Assembly: GCA_020719945.1 (NCBI GenBank)
Contig: DYPL01000013.1
Coordinates: 5,933-40,107 of the forward strand
Direction of reading: 5' to 3'
DNA: 34,175 nucleotides
Source of the DNA: Turneriella parva
Lineage (GTDB): Bacteria; Spirochaetota; Leptospiria; Turneriellales; Turneriellaceae
In this document: one piece after another, positions 24,851-33,275 of the stretch
How positions within the stretch are numbered: position 1 is the stretch's first letter
Layout: each line of letters opens with the position of its first letter
The notes under the pieces: generated by a model
What the model saw: only the letters and a program-made list of their open reading frames with translations
Databases searched by the model: none
Told to the model about the DNA's origin: nothing
Translations under genes and position numbers: made by a program

Positions 24851-25288
24851 TTACTGCACCCCGGTTTTAGCATGGCAGGCACCACATTCATTTACTATCG
24901 CAGAATAACTTTTTAAGACATAGTTCCAGTCGGTATCACCAGTGGAAGAAACTGTTTTAAAATATTTGTCCAGAGCTGCGGCCTCGGTTTCAATTTTTGC
25001 AAAATGGGAATCGAGGCCATTTTTTGCAAACAGGGCCCGCACTTTTTTATACTCTTTTCCATATTCCACATGGGCAATAACGGGAGAAGAAGCAAGATAC
25101 CGCGCGTTTGTTTGGGCTGTGCTTTTGTACCTCATCGATATATTGCTCGCAAGTTCCCGAATGGTAATATCGTATTCCACCATTTCTCTGCGAAGTGCCG
25201 CCTTCTCGGTTCGAGAAAGGTCGGCCACAAACGCAGGCGCTGCATACAAAGGCAACAGAGCCTGCAATAAAAAAAATGTCTTCTTCAC
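24851..25288 (-). CDS. Periplasmic cytochrome c'-like (c556-type) haem protein
   Basis: A 145-residue protein started by GTG, with a signal peptide (KKTFFLLQALLPLYAAPAF) and a predominantly helical body. The single haem-attachment motif, CGACH (135-139), lies at the extreme C-terminus, the arrangement seen in cytochrome c' and c556 four-helix bundles. The N-terminal ligand position (methionine in c556, none in c') cannot be set; Met36 in REMVEYD or Met52 are candidates. It could carry electrons or bind NO or CO. It ends three bases before the lepB start. Its presence suggests a respiratory organism. Confidence 0.8.
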   Translation of the reverse strand: MKKTFFLLQALLPLYAAPAFVADLSRTEKAALRREMVEYDITIRELASNISMRYKSTAQTNARYLASSPVIAHVEYGKEYKKVRALFAKNGLDSHFAKIETEAAALDKYFKTVSSTGDTDWNYVLKSYSAIVNECGACHAKTGVQ

Positions 25289-25323: not shown

Positions 25324-27612
25324 TCAATAATCGAGCATGCGTGCAATGATGCGGTAAGTTGCCTCGTCCAGAGCAGAGAAAAACATGATATCATAAGGAC
25401 CGGTTATTCTATCCTCAATGACTATTTCTTTTTTCGCCATGTCGTACACATAGAGAGTCAAATTTACGATCCTTTCGCCATTGGTTTCATGCCATTCAAA
25501 AGAACCAGCCAGCACAAGGTCCGATCCTGTCAAACTTGCCGTTTCCAGAAAATCGCCGGGCGTAAATGGATTTCGGCCAGCTCGCTCAATCATGGATTTC
25601 CGAACTGTTTCACCGGCTGCTTCGGAAACAAAATTATAGCCGAGCTTTTTAGATATAATGGTGCGCAGAGTGTTTCCTATTTCGTCTTCCATCCAGTTAA
25701 ACGTGAAGTCGCCGGTCACATTGTTTACATTGAGTATGGCCATCATTTTCTGTTTGCCGGGCTCAATCACAATAATTTCTGTACGGCGGTTTCTCGCACG
25801 GTTTTCTTCGCTGGTATTGGGAACTACGGGCTTCACGGAACCCCAGCCCCGAATGCGCATTCTCTCGGCCGGAACTCCGCGTTCAATCAGAGAACGCCTA
25901 ACATTGTCGGCACGAGAATAAGACAAATCAATATTCTGCTGGTAACCTCCGACGTTATCGGTATGTCCCTCTATAGAAATTCCAATCGAAGGATTTTTCA
26001 GAAGCAGATCTTTAATAATGTCAATCTCTGCAAACGATGTAGCCGCCAATGCTGCAGATCCAGATTCAAAGCGAAGGGCTCGGGCTGTAATGGCAGATCC
26101 CGGTTTCAGAGGAACCAGCTTTGCTTCCACATTGAGAAAGTCCTGGTCTTCCCGCAGGGTAAACTCGTCGTAATAGTACAGGTGTCCGGCAGAACGCACG
26201 CGAAGGCTGTAACTTTTTCCACGGTGCAGTCGCATAAGGGGTGAGCTTTTGTAGAATTCTCCGAGGTATTGCCTGTTGTCCCCGCTCACGAGAGGAAGCA
26301 TCTGTATTTCCGCCTGCAAAGGAACGCCAGTGGAAGAAGTCACATCAATAGCTACATTGACCACAGAGGAAAGTGGCTCCCCAGGATGCTTCAGTGCATA
26401 ATGAACGAGTTCATTCCCGGTAGGATGCTCGCGCATATAATACAGACTCGGCTGGTTTTTGAACACGCGCACGGGCATAATCTCATCGCGAAAAGAATTG
26501 ATATCTTTCAATACGTTCGCTGGTTTTCCGAGGGAAACAGAATAGCCGGAATTCTTTTCTTTTTTATAAAGGACAGGAATCGTGATTACATCAACACCGC
26601 CATAGCCGGCATGGCCATTGGACAGAATGTAGAGAAAACGGCCATCCTCACTAAAAGACGGATAGCGTTCGTCTTTGTCTGTGTTAATGGCATCAAGTCC
26701 GTCCACAGATATTCTAAACCATCCGGTGGTAGAAGAGCGCTTGTAAAAAACCAGGTCGCTGTCTTTTCTGCCGGACTTTTCAGAAGGGCATGCCGCTACG
26801 AGGATATCCATCCAGGGAGAAATAGCGGGAAAATCGCAATTTCTCTCTTCCAGATTTTTAAAGTGATTTACAATAATGGACTCCCCTGTGCGCGAAGCGG
26901 GGCGGTTTTCAAAGAGATAGTATTCTCCGCCAAAGGATGCTGCAAACGCGGCAACCGGGGCCGATTTTTTTGCGTCGAGATGGAATATCTCGAGATCAGA
27001 GAGCTGTGCCATTTTGGAATCGTATTCCTTTACGTCTTTCCAACCCTTAAAAAGCGTAAAAGGTTTTTGCTTTTCGCCCGTGCGAATATCCACAATCCAA
27101 GGGCCTTTTGCATCGATGGCAAACGCATACCCCTCCTGCATCAAAGGATAAAACCGTTTGAGTTTATTAAATTTTCCTTCCAGTTTTCCTAACGGCAATA
27201 TCTCAGGGTCGCGCAGAGGGGGCAAACCGGCAGAGCTTTCGAGATTTTGTTTCATCCCGCTCAGTTCCGGTACGCGTTCAGATTCCGGAAACTTCTGGAT
27301 ATATTCATCGAGAAGAGTTTTTGTTTTCGCAAAGTCCTGAGAAAAATACGCTGCCCGGATTCTATGCATCGCATACTCTTCATTTTGGGGCTGCATGGAA
27401 GACAAAGCATCTGCCTGAACAGAAGCCGTTTCAAAGTCCTCGTTCAGAATAGCGGCGCGGTAGAGAGACTCCCGCCATTGCACTTTCCCAGGATCTTTTT
27501 CAATTCTGCCCGCCATGTCCTTTTGATAAGACTGATAATCTTCTTTAGAAATCTGCTGGGCTGCAACAACGCTAACCAGCAAAAATCCCAGCATCCAAAA
27601 TATTTTTTTCAT
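25324..27612 (-). CDS. Exported propeller-like/OmpA protein with TolB-N/LpoB-like tail
   Basis: A 762-residue protein from the ATG at 27612, chosen for its SD (GGAGA, seven bases upstream) and overlap with the preceding stop (ATGA). Order of parts: signal peptide (to about residue 19); TPR-like helices (20-125); a beta-rich region with a PD40-like repeat, ERYPSFSEDGRFLYILS, near residue 310; a beta-sandwich-like stretch (about 420-505); an OmpA peptidoglycan-binding domain (about 510-622) with IEGHTDNVGG and RARNRRTEI; and a 140-residue tail. The tail begins MMAILNVNNVTGDF and contains DLVLAGSFEW, the pattern of CsgG/LpoB/TolB-N-type domains (inference). It should tie the outer membrane to peptidoglycan. 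It follows the receptor-like gene in one operon. Confidence 0.85.
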   Translation of the reverse strand: MKKIFWMLGFLLVSVVAAQQISKEDYQSYQKDMAGRIEKDPGKVQWRESLYRAAILNEDFETASVQADALSSMQPQNEEYAMHRIRAAYFSQDFAKTKTLLDEYIQKFPESERVPELSGMKQNLESSAGLPPLRDPEILPLGKLEGKFNKLKRFYPLMQEGYAFAIDAKGPWIVDIRTGEKQKPFTLFKGWKDVKEYDSKMAQLSDLEIFHLDAKKSAPVAAFAASFGGEYYLFENRPASRTGESIIVNHFKNLEERNCDFPAISPWMDILVAACPSEKSGRKDSDLVFYKRSSTTGWFRISVDGLDAINTDKDERYPSFSEDGRFLYILSNGHAGYGGVDVITIPVLYKKEKNSGYSVSLGKPANVLKDINSFRDEIMPVRVFKNQPSLYYMREHPTGNELVHYALKHPGEPLSSVVNVAIDVTSSTGVPLQAEIQMLPLVSGDNRQYLGEFYKSSPLMRLHRGKSYSLRVRSAGHLYYYDEFTLREDQDFLNVEAKLVPLKPGSAITARALRFESGSAALAATSFAEIDIIKDLLLKNPSIGISIEGHTDNVGGYQQNIDLSYSRADNVRRSLIERGVPAERMRIRGWGSVKPVVPNTSEENRARNRRTEIIVIEPGKQKMMAILNVNNVTGDFTFNWMEDEIGNTLRTIISKKLGYNFVSEAAGETVRKSMIERAGRNPFTPGDFLETASLTGSDLVLAGSFEWHETNGERIVNLTLYVYDMAKKEIVIEDRITGPYDIMFFSALDEATYRIIARMLDY

Positions 27613-29735
27613 CGCGATCTCCACTGAAGTCCAACCGAGAAATAAAACGGCACAGAAGAATACGATCTGTCCAGCAATACCGATGAGCGCATTTGCTCCA
27701 TCAGGGGAGCATAACCGTAAAACGGAGCCGGTGCAGAAGAATCTGCGGTGCGCGCCGTTAACGATGCCCCCATATCAAAATAATAAGACCACCCTCCGGC
27801 GTACTGGCTCGTCACGCGGTAGCCAATATCGGTCGTCGTACCGGCTTCGTCTTCGTAGCGCTCGCGAACCAACAGACCGCGAATTTTGTAAGTGAGTGAA
27901 TGGCTGGCAGGACCGAGTCTTTTAATGTATGAACCCGAAAAAATGTAATTCTCCATCCAAGTAATATCACCCGTGCCTTCCATGATAGACAGGGCTGTGC
28001 GAATCTGGTGCGTATCCCAGAATACAAGATACGCAGTTTCTAATCCCAGGCTCTTATACTCGCCGTCCTGCGTGTAATAGGAAGTCGACGATGGATTGTA
28101 ACGCATTAGATCCTGCTGCATCAGGGCAAACAAGGTCTGCGAAAAGCGCTTGCCGGTCGACTTAAATTCATACCCCGTTTCTGCTTCTGCGGTTTTTACC
28201 GTTTTCATGGGTGAGGCATCTTCATCTCCCGTGCGATTCAGATATAACACATCGGGCTTGCTCTGGTAAAGGCCGGCAGCCGCGAAAACATTCCAGTGTT
28301 TTGTAATGTCATAAGCTGCTTTATTGGCGGCAGAAAGATATATAGTTCCGGAATCACCATAGTGATCGGCCCGCGCGGAGCCATCCCAGTAAAAGCTGTC
28401 CAGCTTGAGGAGAGCCCTTCCAAAGCCTCCCGAAATTAAAAATGGATCGGGAGTGTAACGCTGGTGCTTGTTCTCCAGAGGCCTGTAGAAATCGCCATTG
28501 TCTTTCCAGCGATCTTTTGAATTGATCCGCAAATGGCTGCGCGGGGAGTAGTATTCTACTTCGGCACCAGCCTCCAACGATAAAATGGATAGAGGCTTAA
28601 CCAGAACAGAAGGCCGGGCCGAAAAAAGGGCATAGCGCTGGTCTAAAAAAAGCGTTTCATCATTATAGGTCATTGTCATCATATCATACCCGGTTTGTTT
28701 ATCCGTGTACGCTGTTTCTTCGTAGCGGGCCTGCCCCTCTAAAGACCACGAAAACAATCCAGATGCAATGTGCGTGTAGCGGAGCATATTGGCACCCGCG
28801 TACTTTCTATAACTGTAACCTTCTGCCGCATTGGCAATGGAATCAAGCCCCTGGATCGTGATGAGCTCTATAGTGTCTGCCTTTGTCAATTGAAACGTAT
28901 TGGCAGAATGTATATCCTGACTGCTCGCCGACGAAGTAGTCTGCCTTGCCGTCAGGGATCCATACACTCCGGGAGTGAGCTGGTATGCGGCAGATGCCTT
29001 GATCTGCTGCGGATTGACTTCGGTAAAAAGATGATTTCCCGTGCGTGCATTTCTATTGAGTCGCGTTTCAGAAACGGCACCGCCAAGTCCATCGCGCCGC
29101 ACAACCGAGTGCCCTCCCCTGTGGAACAGAACCTCGTAAGAATCATAGGGGTCTACATAGGGCGCACTGCCCCCATAATGAAAAGGCGAAGAGAGAGCCA
29201 TGCCGTCATACAGAAACACGGTAGAAGAAGGCGCCATGCCTCGCGAACTCATGCGCGCGTCCAGAGTGCCAGACTGGTACACAGAAGGAGACAAAACCAG
29301 CGGATTGGTATATGCGCCCATGTTTCCGGGAAGTCGAATAATCTCGTCATTAAACCAGGTGTCGGTAGAGGGGGGGGTTGGGACTAACTGCCGTGCGGGA
29401 ATTGCGTTCACCCGATCGACGACATCTGCCATATTAATCGCAATCGTAAAGTTACTTCTCGCCTTGATGAGAATGGTTTTTTTGCCAGTGGATGTATGCG
29501 TTACCGTGAGCATGTATCTGCCAGGCTTTACGTTCTCCGCAATAAATTCTCCCGACTCGTTAGTTTTCACAGAGTAGCCACCGGGAGCAGGAATTTTATT
29601 TAGAGGGCTCGGAGTCAAAAAAACGGTGGCGCCAGAAACGGGAGCCTCCCCCTTCGTAACTTTTCCAGAAACCGTAACCGCATCTAACGATACAATTCCA
29701 AAAATAAATAGAGCAAAAATAAGCATCGAACGCAT
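27609..29735 (-). CDS. TonB-receptor-like outer membrane protein with carboxypeptidase-regulatory-like domain
   Basis: A 708-residue exported protein. After a signal peptide (about 1-19) comes a CarboxypepD_reg-like beta domain (20-105: VSGKVTKGEAPVSGATVFLTP and ENVKPGRYMLTV). Next is a plug-like region (about 125-230) with MSSRGMAPSSTVFLYDGM and GGHSVVRRDGLGGAV, then a C-terminal beta-barrel of alternating strands ending FYFSVGLQWRSR. This is the layout of TonB-dependent outer membrane transporters, although no canonical N-terminal TonB box was identified and the plug is somewhat divergent. The ligand is unknown. It overlaps both its neighbours by 1-4 bases. Confidence 0.85.
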   Translation of the reverse strand: MRSMLIFALFIFGIVSLDAVTVSGKVTKGEAPVSGATVFLTPSPLNKIPAPGGYSVKTNESGEFIAENVKPGRYMLTVTHTSTGKKTILIKARSNFTIAINMADVVDRVNAIPARQLVPTPPSTDTWFNDEIIRLPGNMGAYTNPLVLSPSVYQSGTLDARMSSRGMAPSSTVFLYDGMALSSPFHYGGSAPYVDPYDSYEVLFHRGGHSVVRRDGLGGAVSETRLNRNARTGNHLFTEVNPQQIKASAAYQLTPGVYGSLTARQTTSSASSQDIHSANTFQLTKADTIELITIQGLDSIANAAEGYSYRKYAGANMLRYTHIASGLFSWSLEGQARYEETAYTDKQTGYDMMTMTYNDETLFLDQRYALFSARPSVLVKPLSILSLEAGAEVEYYSPRSHLRINSKDRWKDNGDFYRPLENKHQRYTPDPFLISGGFGRALLKLDSFYWDGSARADHYGDSGTIYLSAANKAAYDITKHWNVFAAAGLYQSKPDVLYLNRTGDEDASPMKTVKTAEAETGYEFKSTGKRFSQTLFALMQQDLMRYNPSSTSYYTQDGEYKSLGLETAYLVFWDTHQIRTALSIMEGTGDITWMENYIFSGSYIKRLGPASHSLTYKIRGLLVRERYEDEAGTTTDIGYRVTSQYAGGWSYYFDMGASLTARTADSSAPAPFYGYAPLMEQMRSSVLLDRSYSSVPFYFSVGLQWRSR

Positions 29736-30175
29736 CAGCGGACTCCTTCGGTAAACTGGAATACCAGATACACTACCGGGTAGTGGGCCTCGTTACCCAC
29801 ATAGGCCGGGGCAATGTCCCCGGGCTTGAGTTCCGAGAGCGCTTTTTCGGCCTGTTTAAAATAGGGTTCCGGAGCCGTTTTTATCAGCTTGCTGGATGCA
29901 ATATTGCCCTCCGCAAAGGTTAGTCTGTACACGACAGATTCCGGAACGGGATAAAAAACGGCATCAACAGGCAAGGTAAGTACAATCTCTTTGGTGAGAG
30001 CGGCAGACTTCCTGTTTGTGTAGAACTCTTTATACTCTTTCTGGAAGGTTTCCTCAAATAAACTGGCGGTGTACTCGTAGGACAGTACGCTGCGCGCGGC
30101 AACGGGTTTGTGGACAACAGGTGCCGTGCAGGAAATAACGAAAAGCGAAAAAGCTGCGGCGATTATTTTTTTCAC
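29735..30175 (-). CDS. Lipoprotein with TonB C-terminal-like domain
   Basis: A 146-residue lipoprotein: GTG start, signal with lipobox VISC (Cys16, Thr17 at +2), then a globular domain. The last 70 residues resemble the TonB C-terminal fold in pattern: a strand VYRLTFAEGNIASSKLIKTA, a helix YFKQAEKALSEL and a final strand VVYLVFQFTEG. TonB normally spans the inner membrane and contacts the TonB box of receptors. Here the domain sits on a lipid-anchored protein with a short linker, directly upstream of a receptor-like gene (TGATG overlap). The domain match is by eye and is the weakest part of the call. The +2 threonine gives no inner-membrane retention signal of the E. coli type. Confidence 0.68.
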   Translation of the reverse strand: MKKIIAAAFSLFVISCTAPVVHKPVAARSVLSYEYTASLFEETFQKEYKEFYTNRKSAALTKEIVLTLPVDAVFYPVPESVVYRLTFAEGNIASSKLIKTAPEPYFKQAEKALSELKPGDIAPAYVGNEAHYPVVYLVFQFTEGVR

Positions 30176-30957
30176 GGCTTACCTCCAAAATATTGTTTTG
30201 CAGAATCCAGCCTGTAACCAACCTGAAATTCAAAGCGCATATAGTCGGCAGACAATTCCGTTTCAGAATCGATAGCAGATTTAAGCATGCTGTAGGTTAC
30301 AAGAGCCTGGTAATACAGGCCATAGGGATGAGGAGCAACTGTGATTCCACCACCACCGAAAAGATACATTTCCCCGTACGTTGCAAAGCGCACGAGAAAA
30401 CCTTCGTCTGTGGGAATATACAACCCTGCCTTTACGAAAAGAGGAAAAGAGAAATCCCAGTTATTCCTTTGCAGAAAAACGGGCTCCACGCGAACATGCG
30501 CTGCCGCAAACGGTTTGGAATAGTTTTCGCCAACCGTGGCAAGCGGGTACATTACCCCGGCACCAAGAACGAGATCTTCCCGGTCTCCCTTGGTAAAAAA
30601 CCGATAATTGAGAAAAGCATCGGCAGAGTGAACGGTAGGGACGGGAGCTCCGTCTTCTTTCCTAAAGGTGCTCTCGTTATTGGTTTTCGGATACTCGCGG
30701 GTTCCTTTTGCAGAAAGCTGGCCGTGCACAAAGGCATCCAAGCCAATTCTGTCGTAATATCCAATAAAACGGGCATTGATACCAGAATGGCTCACTTTGT
30801 AAAAACTCATGGATTCCTGTTTGGAGCGCGCCTCCACGGAATTTCCTAAAGGGCCGACTGTGTAACCGCCAGAAAAATCGAGAACCGTGTCTGCCGAGGC
30901 GAACGCCTGCGCGGTAACCATAAAAATTGCCAAGAATCCAGTTCGCATTGTTACCAT
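30172..30957 (-). CDS. Exported beta-barrel-like outer membrane protein
   Basis: A 261-residue protein starting at the ATG at 30957, which has GGGAG six bases upstream; ATGs at 30969 and 30948 lack this spacing. The signal peptide ends at AFA-SAD (about 20). The mature part alternates polar and hydrophobic residues in many strands rich in Tyr, Phe and Gly, such as FEFQVGYRLDSA near the end and GLYYQALVTYS, as in an outer membrane barrel of 8-12 strands. No family is recognised. It is the first gene of the long minus-strand run and overlaps the lipoprotein start by four bases (GTGA). Confidence 0.7.
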   Translation of the reverse strand: MVTMRTGFLAIFMVTAQAFASADTVLDFSGGYTVGPLGNSVEARSKQESMSFYKVSHSGINARFIGYYDRIGLDAFVHGQLSAKGTREYPKTNNESTFRKEDGAPVPTVHSADAFLNYRFFTKGDREDLVLGAGVMYPLATVGENYSKPFAAAHVRVEPVFLQRNNWDFSFPLFVKAGLYIPTDEGFLVRFATYGEMYLFGGGGITVAPHPYGLYYQALVTYSMLKSAIDSETELSADYMRFEFQVGYRLDSAKQYFGGKP

Positions 30958-30984
30958 TGAAACTCCCATCGCATGTGTAAATAC

Positions 30985-31163: not shown

Positions 31164-32381
31164 ATGTCGGGCCCCGTATTTCAAACTGCAAACTTTCAAC
31201 AAAACGCATTTGTCATTGTAGAAGGAAAATCTGCTCCCGGCTTTTTTATAATCCGCCAGGGCCAGGTGCGTCTCACAGCAGAAATTCCCATTCCGGGAGA
31301 AGATGCAAACCTGCTCTTAGGGCCCGGAGACTTCTTTGGCGTCGTCTCCAGCATGAGCGGCCATCCGCACATTGAATCTGCGCAAACTCTTCAGCCCACC
31401 TCTTTAATTGCCGTAGGCAGTGGCCAGTTTGGTGCGCTCATCCAAAAGAACGCACCCATAGCCATGAAGATTATCCGCTATTTTTCCCAGCGGTTGCGCA
31501 TTATCGATAAGGCCATTACCAAACTTACATTTCACGGAACAGTAGAAGAAGACCCCCAGCTGATGTTTCAGATTGGAGAGTTTTACTTTAACAAGCAGGA
31601 ATACAAGCACGCTGCCTATGCCTACCAAAAATATCTGCGGTTTTTTCCAAACGGAACCTTTTCTGCAAAAGCCAAGATGCAGTTACAGACAATGGGTGCC
31701 CCGTTAGAACCGCCAGCCATACAGGGCAATAATCTTTCCCGCACTTTTCTCGATGGCCAGATGATCATGATAGAGCACGAGCCCGGTGCAGAGCTGTATA
31801 TTATTCAGAGCGGGCGCGTAAAAATTACCAAAGTCGTAAACGACAAAGAAGTGCTGCTGGCCGTGTTACAGCCAGGAGATATTTTTGGAGAAATGGCGCT
31901 TCTCGAAAACAAGCCGCGTTCTGCCTCTGCCGTAACTCATGGCCAGGTATCGACACTTGCCATCAGCCGCCAGAACTTTGAGGCCATGGTGCAGGCCCAG
32001 CCGCAGCTTGCCACAAAACTGATTACGCTGCTCAGCGAACGAATCTGGACAGCATACCGACAGCTCGCTAACCTCCTTATTTTCGATCCCATTGGGCGCA
32101 TTTACGATATGCTTCTCACACAGATCCAAAAAAAGAAAGTGCATATTCAGCCTAAAATACCGTACACATTTGATATTGGTGCACAGGAGCTCATGAAAAT
32201 GCTCGCGTTTTCGCAGGAAGAAGGAGAGCGCCATCTCATGACGATTCTCGAAGACCGCAATATTCGCCTCGATGCAGGCCGCCTCATGACGATGGACGTG
32301 GCAGAAATGGAAAAGCAGGTATTGTTCCACCGCAAAAAGGCAGCCATGGAGCGCAAGCGCGAAGCATCGAGAACACAGTAA
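31164..32381 (+). CDS. CNB-TPR-CNB regulator (two cyclic-nucleotide-binding-like domains)
   Basis: A 405-residue cytoplasmic protein. The first CNB-like beta-roll (about 10-115) has a degenerate phosphate-binding cassette, FFGVVSSMSGHPHIESA. A short TPR-like unit (about 128-170, FYFNKQEYKHAAYAYQKYL) follows. The second CNB domain (about 185-300) has a canonical cassette, FGEMALLENKPRSASA, with the arginine that contacts the cyclic phosphate. The remainder (300-405) is helical and could be a reduced CRP-type DNA-binding region, but I cannot place a clear helix-turn-helix; QELMKMLAFSQEEGERHLMTILE is the best candidate. AGGA lies about 10 bases before the ATG. It is divergent from the ten-gene run and could regulate it, which is inference from position. 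Confidence 0.85.
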   Translation: MSGPVFQTANFQQNAFVIVEGKSAPGFFIIRQGQVRLTAEIPIPGEDANLLLGPGDFFGVVSSMSGHPHIESAQTLQPTSLIAVGSGQFGALIQKNAPIAMKIIRYFSQRLRIIDKAITKLTFHGTVEEDPQLMFQIGEFYFNKQEYKHAAYAYQKYLRFFPNGTFSAKAKMQLQTMGAPLEPPAIQGNNLSRTFLDGQMIMIEHEPGAELYIIQSGRVKITKVVNDKEVLLAVLQPGDIFGEMALLENKPRSASAVTHGQVSTLAISRQNFEAMVQAQPQLATKLITLLSERIWTAYRQLANLLIFDPIGRIYDMLLTQIQKKKVHIQPKIPYTFDIGAQELMKMLAFSQEEGERHLMTILEDRNIRLDAGRLMTMDVAEMEKQVLFHRKKAAMERKREASRTQ

Positions 32382-32432: not shown

Positions 32433-33275
32433 TCAAATTAAAGAAGCTATTTCAAACCATTTGACAATTTTCCCGGTTTCTTCGCGCAGACCACTATCAG
32501 TAAAGTCTATAGACTGCAATGCATTCTCAAACGCTTTCTTTTGCTCCCCTTTCAGTGCAGCAGAATTCACGCTCGCCAAATTTTCACGCACCATCTGGAT
32601 AAGATCTAATCCACCCTTAATGGCCTTGAGCATATAGGTGCCAATGGTAGCCGCTTTAATATATTCTTTCTGCCTCTCTGAATTGAGCGTATCGAAATAG
32701 ATCTTGTGTTTCTTATTCAAATACGCAAGATAATTGCTCATAGGCTTTGGAAACCGCGTCAGCTCCGTTACCATGTTCTGCGTTTCGTGCAATGGCGCCT
32801 GAATATCTCGATCAAAAGCAGTCGTAACAATCAGGATAAAATCGTGGTGACCTCCCGAGTCAATTTCTACCTCGGCGCGTTTAATGTTGGCAATAATTCC
32901 TCGAAAACGTTCTGATATTCGATTGCATTCTTTTTCGATTTCATTCAGGTACTCTACAATGTTCAGGCGCGAAGCCGGTGTAATACCAAGCTGGGCAATC
33001 CACGGGGGAAGATTAAACGGTGCCGGGTGCACCTTGACTTCCGCTACTTTGCTTTCTGAAGAAACTTTGGTTCCACGAGAACGCTGAGCAATGGCCTGGG
33101 CTTCATCAAAACCAAGTGCTATTCGGACAATTTCTACTTTTCGCTTTCTTTTGTTAAAGCGCGTGGCATAACGGTTTCCCTGAGAATCAATGTAGCGATT
33201 TTCAATATTTCCCACACCAATCCGCGAAAGATCGATATCGCTTACACTCGATATTTTTATATATTTTCTTGCCAT
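32433..33275 (-). CDS. Unrecognised soluble protein, 280 residues
   Basis: I do not recognise a family. The product has no signal peptide or membrane segment. It has a basic beta-like N-terminus (1-55, with NKRKRKVEIVRI), a proline-containing linker (about 70-95) and a mainly helical remainder with the look of a coiled or bundled domain (IVEYLNEIEKECNRISERF and further helices). A weak GGA precedes the ATG. It is convergent with the CNB regulator and divergent, by only 30 bases, from the TPR gene, so its promoter must lie within or beside that gene's start. The reading frame is well supported by length and by even codon use. Confidence 0.7.
   Translation of the reverse strand: MARKYIKISSVSDIDLSRIGVGNIENRYIDSQGNRYATRFNKRKRKVEIVRIALGFDEAQAIAQRSRGTKVSSESKVAEVKVHPAPFNLPPWIAQLGITPASRLNIVEYLNEIEKECNRISERFRGIIANIKRAEVEIDSGGHHDFILIVTTAFDRDIQAPLHETQNMVTELTRFPKPMSNYLAYLNKKHKIYFDTLNSERQKEYIKAATIGTYMLKAIKGGLDLIQMVRENLASVNSAALKGEQKKAFENALQSIDFTDSGLREETGKIVKWFEIASLI

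Follow-up and report, generated by a model that had tools for sequence, protein, structure and literature searches.

A four-gene envelope module of Turneriella parva encodes a TonB-C-like lipoprotein beside a TonB-dependent-receptor-like protein

TonB is understood to open outer-membrane receptors as an arm powered from the inner membrane. This energy transducer has an N-terminal inner-membrane transmembrane anchor and a long proline-rich spacer, and is coupled to ExbB-ExbD. What would a TonB-like domain do on a lipoprotein encoded beside a receptor-like protein? Four genes of Turneriella parva raise this question. They lie in a 34,175-nucleotide stretch of DNA (contig DYPL01000013.1, positions 5,933–40,107), referred to here as the window. 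Judged from sequence, there is about an even chance that the gene products form an outer-membrane channel complex in which a motor-free TonB C-terminal (TonB-C) domain on the lipoprotein links or gates its dedicated receptor against a wall-bound protein.

The open reading frame list places four minus-strand genes between 30969 and 25324, encoding a barrel-like protein, a TonB-C lipoprotein, a receptor-like protein and an OmpA fusion. The original prediction described four consecutive genes with 1–4 base overlaps, and direct reading of the junctions confirmed overlaps of 4, 1 and 4 nt. Genes 1 and 2 overlap by 4 nt at GTGA, with GGAGG upstream, and genes 2 and 3 by 1 nt at TGATG, with AAGGAG upstream; a ribosome-binding-site-like sequence thus precedes genes 2 and 3. 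At the gene 3/gene 4 junction (ATGA), the overlap is 4 nt with the ATG at 27612 and 16 nt with the GTG at 27624, and the ATG is the likelier start of gene 4. The genes and their domains are as follows.

30172–30969, minus strand: gene 1, putative small barrel-like outer-membrane protein; 265 aa, with a signal peptide and a presumed barrel fold.
29735–30175, minus strand: gene 2, TonB-C-like lipoprotein; 146 aa, lipobox VISC with Cys16, TonB-C match at family level.
29750–29938, minus strand: TonB-C-like domain, gene 2 residues about 80–142; full-family hhalign, in register.
27609–29735, minus strand: gene 3, TonB-dependent-receptor-like protein; 708 aa, CarboxypepD_reg and weak Plug, compared with ordinary receptors by tree and alignment.
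29454–29675, minus strand: CarboxypepD_reg domain, gene 3 residues 21–94; Pfam 3e-9.
29079–29282, minus strand: Plug-like stretch, gene 3 residues 152–219; Pfam 0.003, below cut-off, aligning with the plugs of relatives.
25324–27624, minus strand: gene 4, PorE-like anchor with TPR-like, PD40, CarboxypepD-like, OmpA and tail regions; 766 aa.
25786–26073, minus strand: OmpA peptidoglycan-binding domain, gene 4 residues 518–613; Pfam 1.3e-20.
25327–25782, minus strand: C-terminal tail, CsgG/LpoB/TolB-N-like, gene 4 residues 615–766; Pfam LpoB 0.0099, below cut-off.

The order barrel, TonB-C lipoprotein, receptor-like protein and PorE-like protein was found in 13 sampled genomes from four families of the phylum, mostly with overlapping genes. 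Conservation of the four-gene order, set as a check on the original prediction, thus reaches well past the close relatives. The sister species (G001) has all four genes; genes 1, 2 and 4 share 88–92% identity, and the receptor gene is broken by a run of N in the assembly. Divergent copies from two species of another genus of the same family lie on short contigs, one with the barrel, lipoprotein, receptor and start of gene 4 (G008), the other with the end of the lipoprotein, the receptor and gene 4 (G011). The near-complete relatives G005 and G007 lack the lipoprotein and show no close match to the receptor, so the module is patchy within the family.

To find distant copies, the receptors of the window, G008 and G011 were combined into one profile, which was run over 393 genomes of the phylum; sampling covered this one phylum, with many fragmented assemblies. 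Matches were obtained in the families labelled f23, f35 and f39, and receptor identity between the window and these families is 15–18%. The same order is found at nine distant loci (L155, L156, L157, L158, L160, L161, L162, L163 and L167). Lipoprotein and receptor genes overlap by 4 nt in seven of the nine; the 62 nt obtained for L157 and L160 stems from the script's choice of the most upstream start. Receptor and gene 4 overlap by 10 nt at six loci and by 25–28 nt at three. Spacing between the barrel and lipoprotein genes varies, from an overlap of 17 nt to a gap of 78 nt. Flanking genes differ between the families carrying the module. All 12 strong lipoprotein-profile matches in the 393 genomes are inside the module. 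Two further matches are weak: one in G056 looks by eye like an ordinary TonB behind ExbB/ExbD-like genes, and one in G344 is TonB-like.

The C-terminal half of the lipoprotein had been likened to TonB-C, an assignment that holds for the family and lies below Pfam detection for the window protein by itself. Searched singly, the window lipoprotein has no TonB match in Pfam or NCBIfam, and only a sub-threshold match to DUF4179. An early hhalign comparison of four close sequences with TonB-C scored 22.8, above all 300 shuffles, and single lipoprotein sequences gave no excess over real ORFs. The assignment became firm only after distant relatives were added. The lipoprotein family then aligned with TonB-C (PF03544) over about 70 residues, with probability 96.8, E 2.5e-10 and score 57.9, versus 9.9±1.8 (maximum 17.1) for 200 column shuffles of the same alignment. 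Distant members alone gave probability 96.5 and E 9.2e-10, and the lipoproteins of L160, L161 and L163 score above the Pfam TonB_C cut-off. Searched against PDB sequences, the family profile returned TonB chains only below significance (E 0.14–0.19). Structure prediction neither supports nor refutes a TonB-C fold: AlphaFold modelled the single window lipoprotein at pLDDT 44.6, with strand-strand-helix-strand order in this low-confidence model, and Foldseek with the model returned nothing meaningful.

The lipobox Cys does not vary among the 12 aligned members, and in none of them is the next residue Asp. Under the E. coli sorting rule, lipoproteins without Asp after the Cys go to the outer membrane, so the module lipoprotein is probably sorted there. 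The mature proteins (window and G008 members) have few Pro residues and neither a second strongly hydrophobic segment nor a proline-rich spacer. The lipoproteins are thus homologous to TonB by sequence profile but differ from it in having a lipobox and predicted lipid anchor instead of a transmembrane helix, no long spacer and no adjacent ExbBD, and in being dedicated to one receptor gene. ExbBD genes are present elsewhere in the window genome. The lipoprotein appears to be TonB's grip without the anatomy that connects TonB to the inner-membrane motor. Since it has no transmembrane helix or proline-rich spacer, and separate full-length TonBs are encoded in the same genome, its predicted anatomy favors a regulator, adaptor or bridge over an energized TonB. 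Of the three roles originally suggested (TonB substitute, plug regulator or structural bridge), sequence by itself does not single out one. No description of such a lipid-anchored TonB-C lipoprotein was found in the open-access literature.

The myxochelin receptor MxcH also has a TonB-C-like domain tied to a receptor. Positions 2–84 of the MxcH model (NCBIfam NF038079) match module lipoproteins at 1.3e-5 and 2.2e-5, and this N-terminal stretch also matches TonB ORFs in many genomes. In MxcH the TonB-C-like stretch is fused to the receptor, whereas the module has a separate lipoprotein and its receptor part is far below the NF038079 cut-off. Because MxcH carries both parts in one protein, direct contact of TonB-C with the receptor is plausible. 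A categorically new system was considered and rejected, since every domain is known and MxcH already joins TonB-C to a receptor.

Gene 3 had been described as a plug protein with a CarboxypepD_reg-like front, and both parts were recovered. In the window receptor, CarboxypepD_reg is above the Pfam cut-off and the Plug match is weak; the receptors of L155 and L158 are above the Plug cut-off, and the plug region of module receptors aligns with plugs of ordinary receptors. No Pfam barrel match (PF00593-type) was found in module receptors. In a receptor tree, a well-supported branch (100/99) separates module receptors from ordinary ones; one side of it is a clade only if the root is on the other side. 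The exact place of the window receptor is unsure because its branch is very long. The CarboxypepD_reg-Plug plan with its presumed barrel recalls Oar from Myxococcus xanthus, a CarboxypepD-bearing transporter of the TonB-dependent class with an N-terminal extension, which is required for PopC secretion (PMC6434023). Oar differs in having a functional TonB box and a motor-linked TonB, and no lipoprotein partner is described in the parts of that paper drawn on here (PMC6434023).

Ordinary TonB proteins, several in number, are also encoded in the window genome. One belongs to the ExbB-ExbD-TonB cluster of L084. Another, membrane-anchored (L080:5013-11585), immediately precedes an ordinary receptor, after which come a small lipoprotein-like gene and then a further receptor. 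An ExbB-ExbD-ExbD-TonB-receptor cluster is found at L165 (gene names read from the sequences). Another TonB-C protein of unusual anatomy is encoded at L128:1048-1440 in G019; it is 130 aa long, hydrophobic near its N-terminus and has hardly any spacer.

Ordinary TonB-dependent transport by the module is rather unlikely, though it is the strongest alternative. The ExbBD-TonB system of the cell would energize the receptor, and the lipoprotein would be an accessory that aids TonB docking or resets or reserves the plug. The L084 cluster and the other TonBs of the genome could still drive a module receptor, which has retained its plug. Against this, module receptors show no conservation between CarboxypepD and plug and share no TonB-box-like segment there, whereas the matching segment is conserved in ordinary receptors. 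A dedicated TonB-C partner is moreover always present in the module, while ordinary receptors in the same genomes have no lipid-anchored one. We infer that the module resembles a TonB/receptor pair in which the motor-linked TonB was swapped for a lipid-anchored TonB-C domain.

Gene 4 encodes, in order, TPR-like, PD40 propeller, CarboxypepD-like and OmpA regions, followed in the window's genus by a tail. The predicted OmpA protein in fourth position agrees with the Pfam matches to the window protein (OmpA 1.3e-20, PD40 2.5e-4). The domain order is that of PorE, from type IX secretion, and the CHU_0125 family. Gene 4 of L161 matches CHU_0125 at 4.1e-41 (residues 218–605) and PorE at 5e-36, both far below equivalog cut-offs. 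The module proteins differ from PorE by the extra tail in the window's genus and an exchanged C-terminus in f23, and no type IX genes were noticed in the module loci read. A lipobox is found in gene 4 of G008 and G011 only and is absent from the window protein. In f23 (L158, L162 and L167), a sub-threshold LpoB-like C-terminus replaces the missing OmpA domain, so OmpA cannot account for wall binding in every module. The window and f23 tails do not align with each other. The TolB-N/LpoB-like character originally proposed for the window tail has some support at the level of fold superfamily and not of Pfam family, where the LpoB match is sub-threshold. Foldseek matches to a weak tail model (pLDDT 48.6) are dominated by CsgG, PelC, LpoB and TolB chains (best E 1.3e-3), and an unrelated endonuclease V also appears among them.

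The C-terminal domain of PorE was crystallized with a peptidoglycan fragment (PMC7192894), and a proposal holds that PorE combines CpoB, TolB and Pal in one fused protein linking the outer membrane to peptidoglycan (PMC12204202). A Tol-Pal/PorE-type tether is a less probable reading again. The outer membrane would be held to peptidoglycan with the receptor and barrel as anchors, the lipoprotein would be a TolA/TonB-type domain, and transport would be unnecessary. The PorE-like architecture of gene 4, its CsgG/LpoB/TolB-N-like tail and the lack of a stand-alone TolB in the window genome by the TolB_N profile all fit such a tether. The module's patchy distribution, with absence from G005 and G007, is unlike that of a general tether, the fourth protein of f23 has no OmpA domain, and the retained plug suggests a gated channel.

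In the preferred reading, a channel complex with a motor-free TonB-C domain, all four products would form one outer-membrane assembly. Gene 3 would be the TonB-dependent-receptor-like channel, and gene 2 would provide a TonB C-terminal domain that its lipid keeps on the periplasmic side of the outer membrane. The docking site of this domain would be the plug and CarboxypepD part of the receptor, where it would replace or compete with motor-driven TonB. The PorE-like gene 4 product would link the complex to peptidoglycan, and gene 1 would supply an accompanying barrel. Instead of transducing energy, the TonB-C domain would form a fixed link between plug and cell-wall anchor and serve as an adaptor or gate that needs no motor. 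Somewhat short of an even chance is given to the more specific proposal of a TonB domain freed from ExbBD, lipid-anchored in the outer membrane and the fixed partner of a wall-tied channel, which it would gate or couple mechanically to peptidoglycan. If true, TonB-type binding would serve regulation or tethering as well. The module presents a conserved, dedicated TonB domain whose anatomy should keep it from the inner-membrane motor; a receptor-like channel is invariably encoded beside it, and in most modules a peptidoglycan-binding protein as well. Plug gating without a motor becomes directly testable, and PorE-like envelope anchors would extend beyond Bacteroidetes.

The small-barrel label of gene 1 comes from its signal peptide, size and position, and no family model matches it. 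A homolog occupies the same place in the G008 module. In modules of f23, f35 and f39 the position is taken by a protein of roughly 280 aa, and homology between these proteins and gene 1 of the window's family was not detected.

Chance adjacency of unrelated same-strand envelope genes without joint function is very improbable. A cytochrome-like gene and lepB also continue on this strand, so that adjacency in the window alone proves little, but the same overlapping order in four families at 15–20% receptor identity, with different flanks and, among 393 genomes, no strong lipoprotein match outside the module, places the arrangement beyond chance. The cytochrome-like gene (24851–25288) follows the module after 35 nt, in the same orientation. 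It encodes a small protein with a C-terminal CxxCH haem motif (CGACH) that is weakly cytochrome c'-like (Pfam 0.088, below cut-off). The gene is present in the sister species G001 and absent beside the module in G011, so the conserved core comprises the four genes. On the other side, a divergently transcribed gene (31164–32381) encodes two CRP-type cyclic-nucleotide-binding stretches flanking a YbgF/BamD-like TPR stretch; this protein is possibly a regulator of the module or a mere neighbor. The protein encoded at 32433–33275 is related to the Leptospira LIC_10450 family (7.7e-21, short of the model's cut-off).
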